From an uncultured Luminiphilus sp. (GTDB lineage Bacteria; Pseudomonadota; Gammaproteobacteria; Pseudomonadales; Halieaceae): DNA of 35,550 nt. This document shows, piece by piece, positions 4,806-10,461 of the stretch (within the stretch, counting starts at the first letter, position 1; each line of letters starts with the position of its first letter). Under the pieces are notes generated by a model that saw nothing but the letters and a program-made list of their open reading frames with translations, made no database searches and had not been told where the DNA came from. Where the stretch lies: the NCBI GenBank assembly GCA_938091485.1, contig CALKMV010000048.1, positions 1 through 35,550 of the forward strand, written 5' to 3'. Position numbers and translations under genes: made by a program.

Positions 4806-5318
<513 letters not shown>

Positions 5319-5355: not shown

Positions 5356-5937
5356 CTAAGGACTTCTTTGCTTCAGTAATTGGTAGCGCACATCGCCGGC
5401 GGTTTTGTCCCGGAAGATCTCGTAGTGGGTTTCTGGCACGGCTTCCGGATTCGAGCGAGATGTCTCAAAGTAAATCCAACTGTTGGCAGTGATGTGCTTT
5501 CCACTCTGCAATGACATCAAGGTGGATTCACCGACTCTCGCATCAAACGGTGGGTCTACGAAAACAATATCCCATGTTCTGCTGGCTGCGCCGAGAAAGT
5601 CACTTGCCGGGGTGCAATGAGCGGCACCGCAATGCTTAGCGTCGAGTCTCCCCAGATGGCGATCAATATAGGTGGCGGCTTCTCCATCGGTATCGACGAA
5701 ATCACAGTGAGTGGCGCCGCGCGACAGCGCCTCGATCCCGAGAGCGCCCGAGCCCGCAAAGAGATCCAGGCAACGCGCACCGTGCAAACTGTGTCCCAAC
5801 CAGTTGAATACAGTTTCTCTGACCCTGTCTCCCGTGGGCCGCAGTCCAGGCCGATCTGGGAATGCGAGTTTCTGTCCGCGCCACCGCCCACCGATGATGC
5901 GGAGCTGTGAGGTAGCCGGTTTGGCAGCGCGTCGCAT
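5356..5937 (-). CDS. rsmD: 16S rRNA (guanine966-N2)-methyltransferase RsmD
   Basis: RsmD methylates G966 of 16S rRNA in the assembled small-subunit head, using SAM. The 193-residue protein has the family opening LRIIGGRWRGQKL, the substrate loop GLRPTGDRVRETVFNWL, the SAM-binding motif I LDLFAGSGALGIEALSRGA and the catalytic VDPPF motif typical of N2-guanine methyltransferases (DPPF variant of NPPY). The ATG at 5937 gives the standard N-terminus. It is divergent from ftsY (86 bases between starts) and upstream of coaD. The rsmD-ftsY divergent pair is widespread in gammaproteobacteria. Confidence 0.95.
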   Translation of the reverse strand: MRRAAKPATSQLRIIGGRWRGQKLAFPDRPGLRPTGDRVRETVFNWLGHSLHGARCLDLFAGSGALGIEALSRGATHCDFVDTDGEAATYIDRHLGRLDAKHCGAAHCTPASDFLGAASRTWDIVFVDPPFDARVGESTLMSLQSGKHITANSWIYFETSRSNPEAVPETHYEIFRDKTAGDVRYQLLKQRSP

Positions 5938-6023: not shown

Positions 6024-7124
6024 ATGAAGCTATTCAAACGCCGCGCCAAGCCCGATCGTCAGGCTGATGAAGCCAGAGATGACGCAATCACGGAAGCCCT
6101 GGAGGCCCCCGCACCCGATGAGAGCGGCGTCCCTGATGAGGTAGCCGAAGGGGGGGTGGGTCCTGCGTCGTCGGTGGCAGAGGAAAGCGCCTCGTCGCAG
6201 AGCGGCCCCGGTGTTTTCGAGCGGCTGCGCAGCGGGCTGAGTAAAAGTCGGGGTCAGTTCACGGAAGGGCTCGCCAGCATTGTCTTGGGCAAGAAGCAGC
6301 TGAGCCCCGCACTGCTTGAAGCCCTCGAGGAGCAGCTGATCATGGCTGATCTGGGCCTCGAAACCACCGAGAGAGTGCTCGAGTTACTCCGGCAGCGACT
6401 CGATCGCAGTGAATTGTCTGCACAGGAGTCCGTGATGTCAGCTCTAAAGCAGACATTAACGGAGTTGCTAGCGGGACAGGAGTGTCCGCTGGACACTACG
6501 GGGCACCGGCCTTTTGTCATACTGGTTGTTGGGGTCAACGGTGCAGGGAAAACCACCACCATTGGCAAGTTGGCGTATCGGCTGCAGCAGGAGGGGCGCA
6601 GCGTGATGCTGGCGGCCGGCGACACCTTCAGGGCGGCCGCGGTAGAGCAGCTACAGGTCTGGGGCGATCGCCACAATGTGCCAGTGATTGCTCAGCATAC
6701 CGGGGCGGACAGTGCGTCTGTTCTGTTTGATGCCTTGGAGGCGGCTACCGCCCGTGGCGTGGACGTCCTGATTGCGGATACGGCAGGGCGGCTTCAAAAC
6801 AAATCTCATCTTATGGATGAGCTCAGCAAGGTGGTGCGCGTTATGCGCAAGCAGAATGAGGCAGTCCCCCACGAAACTTTGTTGGTGCTCGATGCGGGAA
6901 CGGGCCAGAACGCGGTGTCCCAAGCAGTGGAGTTTGATCAGGCAGTGGGGGTGTCGGGTGTTGCAGTCACCAAGCTAGACGGCACGGCTCGAGGTGGGGT
7001 GCTGTTTGCCATTGCTCACAAGCTTAAGCGCCCCATCCGATTTATTGGTGTAGGCGAGCAGGCCGAGGATCTGAGAGATTTCAGCGCCCGGGATTTTGTT
7101 GATGCCCTGCTGGATGACCACTAG
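6024..7124 (+). CDS. ftsY: Signal recognition particle receptor FtsY
   Basis: FtsY is the membrane-associated GTPase that receives SRP-ribosome complexes and delivers inner-membrane proteins to SecYEG. The 366-residue protein has a short basic start, a 60-residue acidic A domain rich in Glu/Ala, then the N domain and GTPase G domain. GTPase motifs are GVNGAGKTT at 170-178, the DTFRAAA insertion, DTAGR at 252-256 and TKLDG at 316-320, followed by GVGEQAEDL near the C-terminus. It is the first gene of the conserved ftsY-ftsE-ftsX cluster; ftsE begins 12 bases after its stop. The divergent rsmD leaves room for a promoter in 5938-6023. Confidence 0.97.
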   Translation: MKLFKRRAKPDRQADEARDDAITEALEAPAPDESGVPDEVAEGGVGPASSVAEESASSQSGPGVFERLRSGLSKSRGQFTEGLASIVLGKKQLSPALLEALEEQLIMADLGLETTERVLELLRQRLDRSELSAQESVMSALKQTLTELLAGQECPLDTTGHRPFVILVVGVNGAGKTTTIGKLAYRLQQEGRSVMLAAGDTFRAAAVEQLQVWGDRHNVPVIAQHTGADSASVLFDALEAATARGVDVLIADTAGRLQNKSHLMDELSKVVRVMRKQNEAVPHETLLVLDAGTGQNAVSQAVEFDQAVGVSGVAVTKLDGTARGGVLFAIAHKLKRPIRFIGVGEQAEDLRDFSARDFVDALLDDH

Positions 7125-7136
7125 GGTTTTGCACCA

Positions 7137-7799
7137 GTGATTGAATTCGAGCGGGTCAGTCGCCGCTTCGGTGATCAGGACGCACTGCGCAACCTGAATC
7201 TGACTCTCGAAAGGGGAGAAATGGCTTTTCTCACTGGCCATTCGGGGGCGGGTAAGAGTACCTTGTTGCGCCTCTTGCTGTTGCTTGATCGACCCAGTAG
7301 CGGTGATATTCGCGTCAACGGTGAGTCGACCAGCAACATTCGCGCGCGCAAGGTACCACGCTATCGGCGCCGTTTTGGCGTCGTGTTTCAAGACCACAGG
7401 CTGCTCTTTGATCGCAGCGTTCACGACAACGTTGCGTTGCCGTTGGTGATGGCTGGATTCTCCCCCACGGACACCGCGCGCCGGGTGCGCGCCGCTCTCG
7501 ACAAGGTGGGTTTGCTATCACATGAGCGCGCAAACCCTGCGGTATTGTCGGGGGGTGAGCAGCAGCGCGTGGGCATCGCGAGGGCTGTTGTCGCGAGACC
7601 GGAGTTTCTGATTGCCGACGAGCCCACGGGTAATCTCGACCCTAAGCTATCGACCGAGATCATGGCGCTATTTGAGGCCTTCAATCAGGTTGGCGTAACT
7701 GTGCTGGTGGCGACGCATGATTTGCCACTGATATCGCGTCTTAGGCACCGCATTATCGCGCTCCAAGATGGGCGCCTTGCCGGCGCCAACACCCGATGA
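7137..7799 (+). CDS. ftsE: Cell division ATP-binding protein FtsE
   Basis: FtsE is the ABC ATPase that, with the membrane protein FtsX, controls divisome assembly and activates peptidoglycan hydrolases through periplasmic partners such as EnvC. The 220 residues contain Walker A GHSGAGKST (34-42), the Q-loop in VVFQDHRLL, the ABC signature LSGGEQQR (137-144), Walker B FLIADE and the switch histidine in VATHD. The start is GTG at 7137, the first in-frame start after ftsY. The stop overlaps the ftsX start as ATGA, so the two are translationally coupled. Confidence 0.97.
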   Translation: MIEFERVSRRFGDQDALRNLNLTLERGEMAFLTGHSGAGKSTLLRLLLLLDRPSSGDIRVNGESTSNIRARKVPRYRRRFGVVFQDHRLLFDRSVHDNVALPLVMAGFSPTDTARRVRAALDKVGLLSHERANPAVLSGGEQQRVGIARAVVARPEFLIADEPTGNLDPKLSTEIMALFEAFNQVGVTVLVATHDLPLISRLRHRIIALQDGRLAGANTR

Positions 7800-8749
7800 G
7801 TGCCGCACCGGAGCAGGTCAGAGAAGAGTGGGGGCGGTTCGCAGCCTGGCGATCGCAGCACCGGGCCGCAGCCGCCAGTAGCTGGCAAAAGTTGGTGTCG
7901 CGGCTGGTGGCCACGGTGATGGTGTGGCTGGTCGTAGCCATATCTCTGGCGCTGCCCAGCGTGTTGCTCCTGACGCTGGACAATTTGAGACCACTGGTGC
8001 CCGACCTTGCGCGCCCGGCACAGGTGTCGGTCATGCTGGGCGGGCAACTCGACTTTGCGCAGGCGGAAGCCTTACGGCGCAAAATCCAGGACTGGACCAG
8101 CGTTGAAGACGTGACGCTGATTGGTCGAGATGAGGCGCTGACAACGTTCGGTGAGCAGACCGGCTTGTCGCAGTTGCTGACATCGCTGGATCGCAATCCA
8201 CTGCCGCATACGCTGTCGGTTTTACCGAGCATGCCCCGCGCTGACGAGGCTCTCAGCCGGTTGATCGAAGATCTCAACGCGCTGCCGGAAGTGGAAAGGG
8301 TCATGGCGGACAACCAGTGGATGGCCCGCCTGAATCAGATCCTTGTTGCCGGTGAGCGCTGGGGACTCGCTTTAGGGGGTGCCATGGTATTGGGTGCCAT
8401 TCTTGCGCTCGCCAATACGTTGTATCTCGCGATTGCCGCCCGGCGGGAAGAAATTCTAGTAGTGCGCCTGATTGGCGGTTCGCCCGCGTTCATCCGCAGG
8501 CCCTTTCTCTACACCGGCCTGTATTTTGGCGCGGGCGGCGGGCTGCTCGCAGGAGCCATGTTGTGGATATTAACCCTGTGGGTCGCAGGCCCAGCCAATG
8601 CGCTGTTTTTGCTATATGACAGCCCGGGTCAGCTTCACGGGCCGGGCTGGCGGTATCCGTTAGTGCTGATTGCGCTGGGTGCGGCCTTGGGCTTGCTGGC
8701 CTCGTGGATGGCGTCTGTGCGTTATTTCAGCCGTCTTGAAGCGCATTAG
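7796..8749 (+). CDS. ftsX: Cell division protein FtsX (ABC permease-like)
   Basis: FtsX is the inner-membrane partner of FtsE. It has four transmembrane helices and a large periplasmic loop that recruits amidase activators. The 317-residue protein shows a cytoplasmic N-terminus of about 40 residues, a first membrane helix near 43-66, a periplasmic domain of roughly 110 residues with the typical SVMLGGQLD start, and three more hydrophobic helices in the last 140 residues. The start ATG overlaps the ftsE stop by four bases. It is followed by a 100-base region carrying two adjacent inverted repeats and then rpoH. Confidence 0.95.
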   Translation: MSAAPEQVREEWGRFAAWRSQHRAAAASSWQKLVSRLVATVMVWLVVAISLALPSVLLLTLDNLRPLVPDLARPAQVSVMLGGQLDFAQAEALRRKIQDWTSVEDVTLIGRDEALTTFGEQTGLSQLLTSLDRNPLPHTLSVLPSMPRADEALSRLIEDLNALPEVERVMADNQWMARLNQILVAGERWGLALGGAMVLGAILALANTLYLAIAARREEILVVRLIGGSPAFIRRPFLYTGLYFGAGGGLLAGAMLWILTLWVAGPANALFLLYDSPGQLHGPGWRYPLVLIALGAALGLLASWMASVRYFSRLEAH

Positions 8750-8762
8750 TGCTTCCTAACCT

Positions 8763-8785
8763 CCTGAAAAACGGTATTTTTCAGG
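8763..8785. repeat. AT-rich perfect hairpin between ftsX and rpoH
   Basis: A 9-bp perfect inverted repeat (CCTGAAAAA at 8763-8771, TTTTTCAGG at 8777-8785) has a five-base CGGTA loop. It begins 13 bases after the ftsX stop and ends two bases before the CIRCE element. It could act as a weak transcription terminator or attenuator for ftsYEX, or as a second protein-binding site. The stem is A/T-rich and is not followed by a T-run, so it is not a typical intrinsic terminator. Its role is unknown. Confidence 0.6.
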
Positions 8786-8787
8786 GT

Positions 8788-8814
8788 TTAGCACTCTGCG
8801 GGGGAGAGTGCTAA
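8788..8814. promoter_or_regulatory. Perfect CIRCE operator (HrcA binding site) upstream of rpoH
   Basis: The half sites TTAGCACTC (8788-8796) and GAGTGCTAA (8806-8814) are exact reverse complements separated by exactly nine bases. This is the full consensus of CIRCE, the operator of the heat-shock repressor HrcA, classically found before groESL and hrcA-grpE-dnaKJ. Here it precedes rpoH, with the ATG 36 bases after the operator. It overlaps the likely promoter, as expected for repression. hrcA is not in the window. The match is seen directly; HrcA control of rpoH is inference. Confidence 0.9.
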
Positions 8815-8817
8815 AAT
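8788..8817 (+). promoter_or_regulatory. Putative sigma-70 promoter of rpoH embedded in the CIRCE element
   Basis: A -35-like TTAGCA (8788-8793) and a -10-like TAAAAT (8812-8817) are 18 bases apart. Both hexamers overlap the two CIRCE half sites, so a bound repressor would cover the whole promoter. The predicted start is near 8824, giving a leader of about 25 nt. A sigma-E-type promoter, as at E. coli rpoH, is not evident in the intergenic region. Additional promoters inside ftsX cannot be excluded. Confidence 0.45.
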
Positions 8818-8849
8818 ACCTCGCCAGGAGCCTTGTGGAGGCGATCGAC

Positions 8850-9725
8850 ATGACTGAAACAACGCGTTTACCAGCCTTGCCCAATAGCGCTGTGTTGAAT
8901 ATGGCGCCCGGTGCGAACTTGTCGGCCTATATTCAGGCGGTGAGCGGTATTGCTGTGCTGTCGGCCGAGCGTGAGCGCGAGTTGGCAGAGCGCCTGTTTT
9001 ATGAAGAGTGTGTCGATTCAGCGCGGGAGTTAGTCCTGGCGCATCTTCGCTTCGTGGTGCACATTGCCCGCAGCTACTCTGGTTATGGCCTCGCAGAAGC
9101 CGATCTAATTCAGGAGGGCAACGTTGGCCTCATGAAGGCGGTGAAGCGCTTTGACCCTAATAAAGGCGTTCGACTGGTGTCGTTTGCGGTCCATTGGATC
9201 AAGGCTGAGATGCACGAGTACATTCTCCGCAACTGGCGGATTGTTAAAGTCGCCACGACCAAGGCCCAGAGGAAACTGTTTTTTAATCTGCGCAGCCAAA
9301 AGAAATCCTTGGGCTGGTTGTCGGCTGAAGAAACCCGGGCGATTGCGGCTGATCTCGGTGTGGACGAAGCGGAGGTCACGCGCATGGAAGGGCGCTTGGC
9401 CAGTCGAGATGTTGCGTTCGATGCGTCCCCCGATAGTGACGAAGATGATGCCTGGCAGGCGCCGCAATATTTTCTGACGGGCGGCCAGACTGATCCGGGT
9501 CAGCTAGTGGAGGCAGAAGACTTTGCTCAGGAGAGCTCGGCCCGGCTACGCATCGCTCTGGCGGAACTGGATGATCGCAGCCGCGATATTCTTGAGCGGC
9601 GCTGGTTGGCAGACGACAAGGCTACGCTGCACGAGCTGGCAGCCGAGTATGAGGTGTCGGCAGAACGCATACGGCAGCTGGAAGCCAATGCGATGAAAAA
9701 GCTGCGCACCGCCATGGCGGCATAA
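8850..9725 (+). CDS. rpoH: Heat-shock sigma factor RpoH (sigma-32)
   Basis: RpoH directs RNA polymerase to heat-shock promoters (chaperones, proteases). The 291-residue protein has sigma-70 region 2 with [20 protein letters not shown] and [20 protein letters not shown], and then the diagnostic RpoH box QRKLFFNLR. This box separates it from RpoD and RpoS and is involved in core binding and chaperone/FtsH-dependent control. Region 4 near the C-terminus has [17 protein letters not shown]. The start is the ATG at 8850, preceded by TGGAGG. A GTG at 8808 would lie inside the CIRCE element and add 14 unrelated residues. It sits after ftsYEX as in most gammaproteobacteria. The CIRCE site suggests HrcA repression in addition to the usual post-translational control. 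Confidence 0.97.
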
Positions 9726-9762: not shown

Positions 9763-10461
9763 GTGGGATCCTCCCGGCCTCCGCTGAATCATCGGATACG
9801 CAGTTTCGTGATGCGCGCCGGGCGAACGACGCCCGGTCAGGAGCGGGGTTGGCAGGAAGGCTTTCCACAGTTTGGTCTTACGCTGGAGAGCGGACCCCTC
9901 GACTGGGATCAGACCTTCGGCTTTACAGGTCGACGCATTATCGAAATTGGCTTTGGTATGGGCGACAGCCTGTTACAGATGGCCAAGGCCGAGCCGGCCG
10001 TTCAGTTTGTCGGTATCGAAGTTCATCGACCTGGAGTTGGACGGTTGCTGGCACAGCTCTTGGGCGGCAAGATCCAGAATCTCCGAGTTTATGCCGACGA
10101 TGCGGTAGAGGTCATGGAGCAGTGCTTTTCCCCCAATACGCTCGACGCGATCCATATTTTTTTCCCGGATCCCTGGCATAAAAAGCGACATCACAAGCGG
10201 CGACTGATCCAGCCACAGCTGGTTCGCGATCTGGCGCGGTTGCTGAGGAAAGATGGCTATTTACACCTCGCAACCGACTGGGCGCCTTATGCTGAGCATA
10301 TGTTCGAGGTGCTCGATGCGGAGCCGCTGCTGATTAGCGCAGCGGGCGAGCCCGCTACAGCGGTTCCGCGCCCTCACTATCGCCCCCCCACCAAATTTGA
10401 AGCACGGGGCGAGCGCTTGGGGCACGTTGTTCAAGACCTGATTTATCGCAGGTATCAGTAA
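9763..10461 (+). CDS. trmB: tRNA (guanine46-N7)-methyltransferase TrmB
   Basis: TrmB makes m7G46 in the variable loop of many tRNAs using SAM. The 232-residue protein carries the family N-terminal segment RIRSFV-x-RAGR, the SAM-binding motif IIEIGFGMGDSLLQMA near residue 59, FVGIEVHRPGVGRLL, and the hallmark FFPDPWHKKRHHKRRL near residue 150. The C-terminal PTKFEARGERLGH is also typical. The GTG start at 9763 is chosen because the next ATG (9811) would delete the conserved RIRSFV segment. It begins 37 bases after rpoH. trmB is not the usual neighbour of rpoH in enterics, so the linkage may be local. Confidence 0.93.
   Translation: MGSSRPPLNHRIRSFVMRAGRTTPGQERGWQEGFPQFGLTLESGPLDWDQTFGFTGRRIIEIGFGMGDSLLQMAKAEPAVQFVGIEVHRPGVGRLLAQLLGGKIQNLRVYADDAVEVMEQCFSPNTLDAIHIFFPDPWHKKRHHKRRLIQPQLVRDLARLLRKDGYLHLATDWAPYAEHMFEVLDAEPLLISAAGEPATAVPRPHYRPPTKFEARGERLGHVVQDLIYRRYQ

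Follow-up and report, generated by a model that had tools for sequence, protein, structure and literature searches.

The sigma-32 system of Escherichia coli and the HrcA/CIRCE system of Bacillus are the textbook examples of alternative heat-shock schemes. In Bacillus, the activity of HrcA depends on GroEL, and in E. coli DnaK is sensed at the level of sigma-32 activity. Sigma-E promoters follow the consensus GGAACTT-N16-TCTRA. The P3 promoter of E. coli rpoH is sigma-E dependent and has a GAACTT-type -35 and a TCTRA-type -10 element at 16-nt spacing. E. coli rpoH is also controlled by a translational thermosensor, and in other bacteria CIRCE can function at the mRNA level. To our knowledge, rpoH of E. 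coli has no CIRCE. HrcA/CIRCE and sigma-32 regulons, partly of the same groups, were reportedly described by Permina and Gelfand in 2003, and their work may already list rpoH sites.

A CIRCE in front of rpoH has been predicted in Geobacter sulfurreducens. According to the accessible part of Rodionov et al. (2004; PMC545781, Table 8), an exact element lies upstream of rpoH at position -51 to the translation start, and further CIRCEs are located at groESL and hrcA-grpE-dnaK-dnaJ; overlap with a sigma-E promoter is not mentioned in that part. A literature search, with most subscription papers outside its reach, returned no other report of CIRCE before rpoH, and the accessible parts of PMC3989490, PMC9803151, PMC11764788, PMC10490939, PMC10696704 and PMC3224663 contain no mention of an HrcA site at rpoH. 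Like G. sulfurreducens, the bacterium analysed here, an uncultured Luminiphilus sp., carries an exact CIRCE before rpoH.

Results

An exact CIRCE precedes rpoH

The window (the whole stretch of DNA that was analysed, 35,550 nt) reads TTAGCACTC-TGCGGGGGA-GAGTGCTAA at positions 8788-8814. This is an exact CIRCE (TTAGCACTC-N9-GAGTGCTAA) with half-sites at 8788-8796 and 8806-8814 and a 9-nt spacer. It has no mismatch at the 18 half-site positions, just as an earlier sequence-only reading had claimed for every half-site base. The element, annotated without a strand as a predicted HrcA operator, has the consensus, is conserved in relatives, lies in a genome with hrcA and overlaps the predicted promoter of a heat-shock gene. 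It is the sole match at up to three mismatches in the 35.5-kb window, where 0.01 such matches are expected and 1 of 100 shuffles contained one, and again the sole match in the 1.3-Mb assembly. Read backwards, the CIRCE pattern yields two chance matches in the assembly at the same threshold, so that exactness and place carry the weight. A chance origin of the match was ruled out by the shuffle expectation and by a reversed half-site control in the class survey described below, in which the best fit had five mismatches (2 of 127 genomes).

CIRCE is situated in the 100-bp gap between the end of ftsX (8749) and the rpoH ATG (8850), 35 nt before this start codon. The gene order at the locus is ftsY-ftsE-ftsX-CIRCE-rpoH-trmB, with ftsY at 6024-7124 (TIGR00064), ftsE at 7137-7799 (TIGR02673) and ftsX at 7796-8749 on the plus strand (TIGR00439), all above cut-off, and trmB at 9763-10461 on the plus strand (TIGR00091, 166.2 bits, cut-off 112.65). 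The rpoH gene (8850-9725, plus strand) encodes a canonical sigma-32 protein of 291 amino acids, assigned to this family by TIGR02392 (384.5 bits, cut-off 323.1) and scoring 412.2 bits with PRK06596. The protein carries the motif QRKLFFNLR, which we take to be the 'RpoH box', and is up to 92% identical to RpoH of Luminiphilus and Halieaceae marine Gammaproteobacteria. The longest rpoH frame opens with a GTG at 8808, inside CIRCE. This start is not needed; the ATG at 8850 is the better predicted start, because a Shine-Dalgarno-like GGAGG (8837-8841, plus strand, read from the sequence) precedes it and the closest relatives align from that residue. Ten further ORFs were scanned between 362 and 17708. 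Eight of them are ordinary (slmA, argB, coaBC, mutM, hemW, metX, proC and a pilT family member), with the succinyltransferase model slightly below cut-off for metX, and the ORFs at 4809-5288 and 5359-5937 had no match at E 1e-60.

hrcA and chaperone genes in the same genome

The sequence-only reading had proposed a search of the genome for hrcA and for other CIRCE copies. The gene is present in the assembly, which comprises 1.3 Mb and is 54.7% complete: HrcA scored 215.3 bits with PF01628 and 317.2 bits with TIGR00331 (cut-off 197) and matches its full-length model. It is encoded in an hrcA-grpE-dnaK-dnaJ cluster adjoining recN. Other CIRCE copies did not turn up at up to three mismatches in this incomplete assembly, the hrcA cluster included. 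A CIRCE at hrcA-grpE-dnaK was rejected, as the best fit near hrcA had seven mismatches. The genome also contains rpoE (278 bits, cut-off 236), and groEL had no match in the 54.7%-complete bin.

Sigma-32-like promoters were searched with the consensus printed in the accessible part of PMC545781. At the level of 12 of 13 positions, the 14 kb scanned around hrcA hold just two, one before grpE and one before dnaK (locus L326, contig C20, 7311 and 6536 on the minus strand; CTTGAAA..CCCCAC or CCACAT, and CTTGAAT..CCCCAT), and none was found in the 35.5-kb window. Since the cluster has these promoters and no CIRCE, grpE and dnaK are probable sigma-32 targets, and HrcA would reach DnaK solely via RpoH in this organism.

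The site is conserved and associated with hrcA

Upstream regions of 80 named rpoH loci were compared, irrespective of their hrcA status. CIRCE is found before rpoH at up to two mismatches in 72 of them (no mismatch in 62, one in 9, two in 1). The best fit in the remaining eight has at least five mismatches; L097, with 22 nt of upstream DNA, is scored as a miss. Across the 72 sites, identity is 89-100% in the 18 half-site columns and about 28-61% in most flanking columns. Two stretches of the flanks stand apart, a GGAACTTTT-like block (-15 to -7; 58-90%) and the AAT columns after the right arm (86-100%). In the spacer, the first base is T in 72 of 72 sites and three columns reach 62-75%. At the 13 loci closest to the window the half-sites are perfect, and spacer and flanks vary. 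Two refuting conditions of the earlier reading, a genome without hrcA and loss of the half-sites in close relatives, were examined and turned out in its favour: hrcA is present, and the relatives keep the half-sites ahead of rpoH, with change in most of the flanking columns. A site peculiar to the window's genome is ruled out by the named loci and the class survey.

For the class survey, 143 gammaproteobacterial genomes were sampled, one per family. Fifteen without rpoH above cut-off were left out, and upstream DNA was taken for 127, a set that excludes the window's genome and includes G035 of the order sample. CIRCE with up to three mismatches precedes rpoH in 85 of 91 hrcA-positive genomes (45 exact, 29 with one mismatch, 6 with two and 5 with three), leaving six without the site, compared to 9 of 36 hrcA-negative genomes. 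Five of these nine are listed as at least 97% complete. Four of them have CIRCE with 0-1 mismatch before rpoH and no hrcA match (L280 in G159, L197 in G237, L233 in G271, L278 in G278), and the fifth, G218, has three mismatches and likewise no hrcA match. Such genomes suggest that hrcA was missed or recently lost, or that another protein binds the site.

The window's order was sampled with 145 genomes, of which the hrcA-positive G022 and G062 were left out for lack of a full rpoH match, leaving 41 hrcA-positive genomes. With three mismatches allowed, 40 of these 41 have the site before rpoH (38 with two allowed), versus 5 of 102 hrcA-negative genomes, for which the threshold was two mismatches (G002, G016, G091, G087 and G141). 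Of the 40, among them the genome of the window itself and G119, whose rpoH is cut by a contig end, 33 came from a scan at up to two mismatches and seven more from a scan at up to three; the sole exception is G105. All 97 site-less hrcA-negative genomes, among them G120 with no full rpoH match, were scored by genome-wide pattern search. In 27 of them (26 and G035) the upstream DNA was scanned as well, with a best fit of five mismatches. The association in the order gave a Fisher P of 1e-28; neither this test nor that for the class corrects for shared descent. In family f18, hrcA and the site are both present in G017 and both absent from G092. As a control, E. coli was negative with PF01628, i.e. 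it has no HrcA. Among the sampled Gammaproteobacteria with HrcA, CIRCE at rpoH is near the rule.

Outside the class, at least 2 of 113 genomes inspected by eye have an exact-core CIRCE adjoining a listed rpoH (G334 and G403, both of family f197, with rpoH matches below cut-off). Among the other 37 genomes, drawn from window, order and class, at least six do so (G000, G197, G250, G352, G371 and G393). These figures are lower bounds, as the pattern accepted only sites with an exact core that are followed by an ATG at 8-38 nt, and as many rpoH positions were absent from the lists compared. At two loci additional repeats were seen close to the CIRCE before rpoH, namely a second CIRCE-like repeat in G153 (L252) and an extra half-site in G195 (L239).

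The putative operator overlaps predicted promoters

A single sigma-70-like site lies between 8700 and 8900, namely TTAGCA-18-TAAAAT (8788-8817), in which TG precedes the -10; the mean for shuffled sequence was 0.1. The candidate -35, TTAGCA (8788-8793), belongs to the left arm of CIRCE, and the candidate extended -10, TGCTAAAAT (8809-8817, plus strand), is composed of the right arm and AAT. Since this site overlaps CIRCE, the operator itself provides most of the predicted promoter. The claim that the element sits on the rpoH promoter therefore stands as a prediction, and the CIRCE-borne extended -10 TGCTAAAAT is likely the promoter in the window. AAT directly follows CIRCE in all 13 loci closest to the window and in 53 of the 72 named loci with a site.

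A sigma-E-type promoter, which the earlier reading does not mention, can be recognized at many sites of relatives. GAAC starts 14-16 bases before CIRCE in 61 of 94 class sites (background 0.3% per position) and occupies -16 to -13 in 57 of 72 named sites. Combined with TC of the left arm and a following TAA, this block gives GAACTT-N16-TCTAA, the form of a sigma-E promoter. TAA stands at the start of the spacer in 22 of the 94 class sites and in 41 of the 72 named ones; even a loose T-any-A start is found in just 44 of 94 class sites, and the -10 match is thus weaker than the -35 match. At 40 of the 94 class sites, right arm and next bases form a TG-extended -10 (at least five of six matches). 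GAAC and the right-arm -10 occur together in 22 of the 94, GAAC only in 39, the -10 only in 18, and neither in 15.

In the window itself, GGTATTTTTC (8773-8782, plus strand) is identical to GGAACTTTTC of the relatives at 8 of 10 positions and ends five bases before CIRCE, at the same spacing as GGAACTTTTC. It is a probable decayed sigma-E-type -35, although 8/10 matches to GGAACTTTTC occur 12 times on the plus strand of the whole window. By position, TCTGC (8795-8799, plus strand) corresponds to the sigma-E-type -10, which reads TCTAA in most relatives. With GGTATTTTTC and TCTGC in these places, GGAACTT-N16-TCTRA is not matched in the window, and GAAC is missing at the -35 place both here and in all 13 closest loci (0 of 13). 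The absence of GAAC and the 8/10 match of GGTATTTTTC together suggest that sigma-E input is lost or weak in the window; the sigma-E part of the rpoH promoter seems to have decayed in this lineage.

CIRCEs of rpoH and groESL were compared after assigning the downstream gene by a short protein motif and setting aside sites with neither motif; a groESL CIRCE was assigned in 14 order loci. GAAC at the fixed spacing was observed in 20 of 28 rpoH CIRCEs (window included) and 0 of 23 groESL CIRCEs, and the right-arm -10 in 14 of 28 and 1 of 23, respectively. TTGAC lies upstream of the groESL CIRCE in 17 of 23 cases, counted by eye. In addition, 30 rpoH loci of the order were scanned for the strict sigma-E-type pattern GAACTT-N15/17-TC[TA][AG]A, which is present in 8 of 26 hrcA-negative and 1 of 4 hrcA-positive loci. 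Two hrcA-negative loci, L058 and L054, have TTAGGCATCTAA and TTGGCACTTCTAA before a sigma-E-type -10, which look like an eroded CIRCE left arm.

As the CIRCE arms overlap -10 elements, some of the conservation may be due to the promoter and not to the repressor. An extended -10 is formed by the right arm, both in the window and in the 40 class sites, the left arm with TAA gives a sigma-E-type -10, and the first spacer base is the invariant T. That the palindrome is kept mainly as a part of the rpoH promoter (TTAGCA ... TGCTAAAAT, and the sigma-E-type -10 in relatives), HrcA binding being incidental, is nevertheless improbable. Promoters have no need of 18 palindromic positions, and groESL has the same palindrome in a different promoter frame. 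Moreover, most hrcA-negative genomes of the order lack the site (5 of 102 keep it), whereas the strict sigma-E-type promoter stays in 8 of 26 scanned, although this strict pattern detects just 1 of 4 hrcA-positive loci. We consider it very improbable that the inverted repeat works at the level of the mRNA leader, through stability or as a translational thermosensor, instead of as an operator. There are precedents in the action of CIRCE in mRNA of other bacteria and in the E. coli rpoH thermosensor, but transcription from either predicted promoter would begin inside the repeat or immediately behind it, so that the repeat would not lie wholly in the leader, and Rfam gave no family at gathering level in the window. 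A relic unused by HrcA in the window's lineage would fit the absent sigma-E-type -35 of its clade and is hardly credible, given an hrcA gene that fits its full-length model and half-sites that have no mismatch at the 13 closest loci despite varying spacer and flanks.

Discussion

The exact match, its conservation before rpoH and its association with hrcA suggest that 8788-8814 is very probably a working HrcA operator, through which HrcA would repress rpoH, so that a shortage of GroEL would raise sigma-32. With HrcA bound there, the extended -10 and the start region would be covered and RNA polymerase blocked, so that rpoH would be transcribed at a low level. Once GroEL is occupied by unfolded proteins, HrcA would lose activity and leave the operator, and rpoH would be transcribed. 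Sigma-32 would then switch on chaperone genes, in the window's genome probably grpE and dnaK. A subsequent rise in GroEL would re-activate HrcA and close a feedback loop.

The operator overlies a sigma-E-type promoter in most relatives, so sigma-E and the release of HrcA may both be read there, and envelope stress and cytoplasmic folding stress would converge at rpoH. As the same arrangement recurs in most HrcA-bearing relatives sampled, the two heat-shock systems appear to be wired together. We lean slightly towards the view that HrcA control of rpoH, combined with sigma-E, is ancestral in Gammaproteobacteria, and that the E. coli scheme is derived through loss of hrcA and then of the operator. 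In such an ancestral composite promoter, GroEL shortage and envelope stress would meet on sigma-32 synthesis. Should the supply of sigma-32 be set by HrcA in most Gammaproteobacteria that have this repressor, both systems would be one hierarchy, which senses GroEL at the level of transcription and DnaK through the activity of sigma-32. The E. coli circuit would then look reduced. A repressor operator built into a sigma-E-type promoter is also a concrete design that can be tested.

The idea of HrcA at rpoH is already in print, and the new part is likely the breadth of the arrangement and its overlap with sigma-E-type promoters. With the Geobacter case published, we limit the claim of novelty to these two aspects. 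Operator and repressor family are common to the rpoH site and HrcA/CIRCE at groESL. The promoter frames differ, as none of the 23 groESL CIRCEs has GAAC at the rpoH spacing that is found in 20 of 28 rpoH sites. The rpoH promoter of the relatives resembles E. coli rpoH P3 in its GAACTT-type -35 and TCTRA-type -10, whereas E. coli differs from the window's genome in having neither HrcA nor a known CIRCE at rpoH. G. sulfurreducens, a delta-proteobacterium, is the sole genome with an rpoH site in Table 8 of PMC545781; unlike in this species, hrcA-grpE-dnaK of the window's genome is without CIRCE, and the arrangement at rpoH recurs across Gammaproteobacteria.
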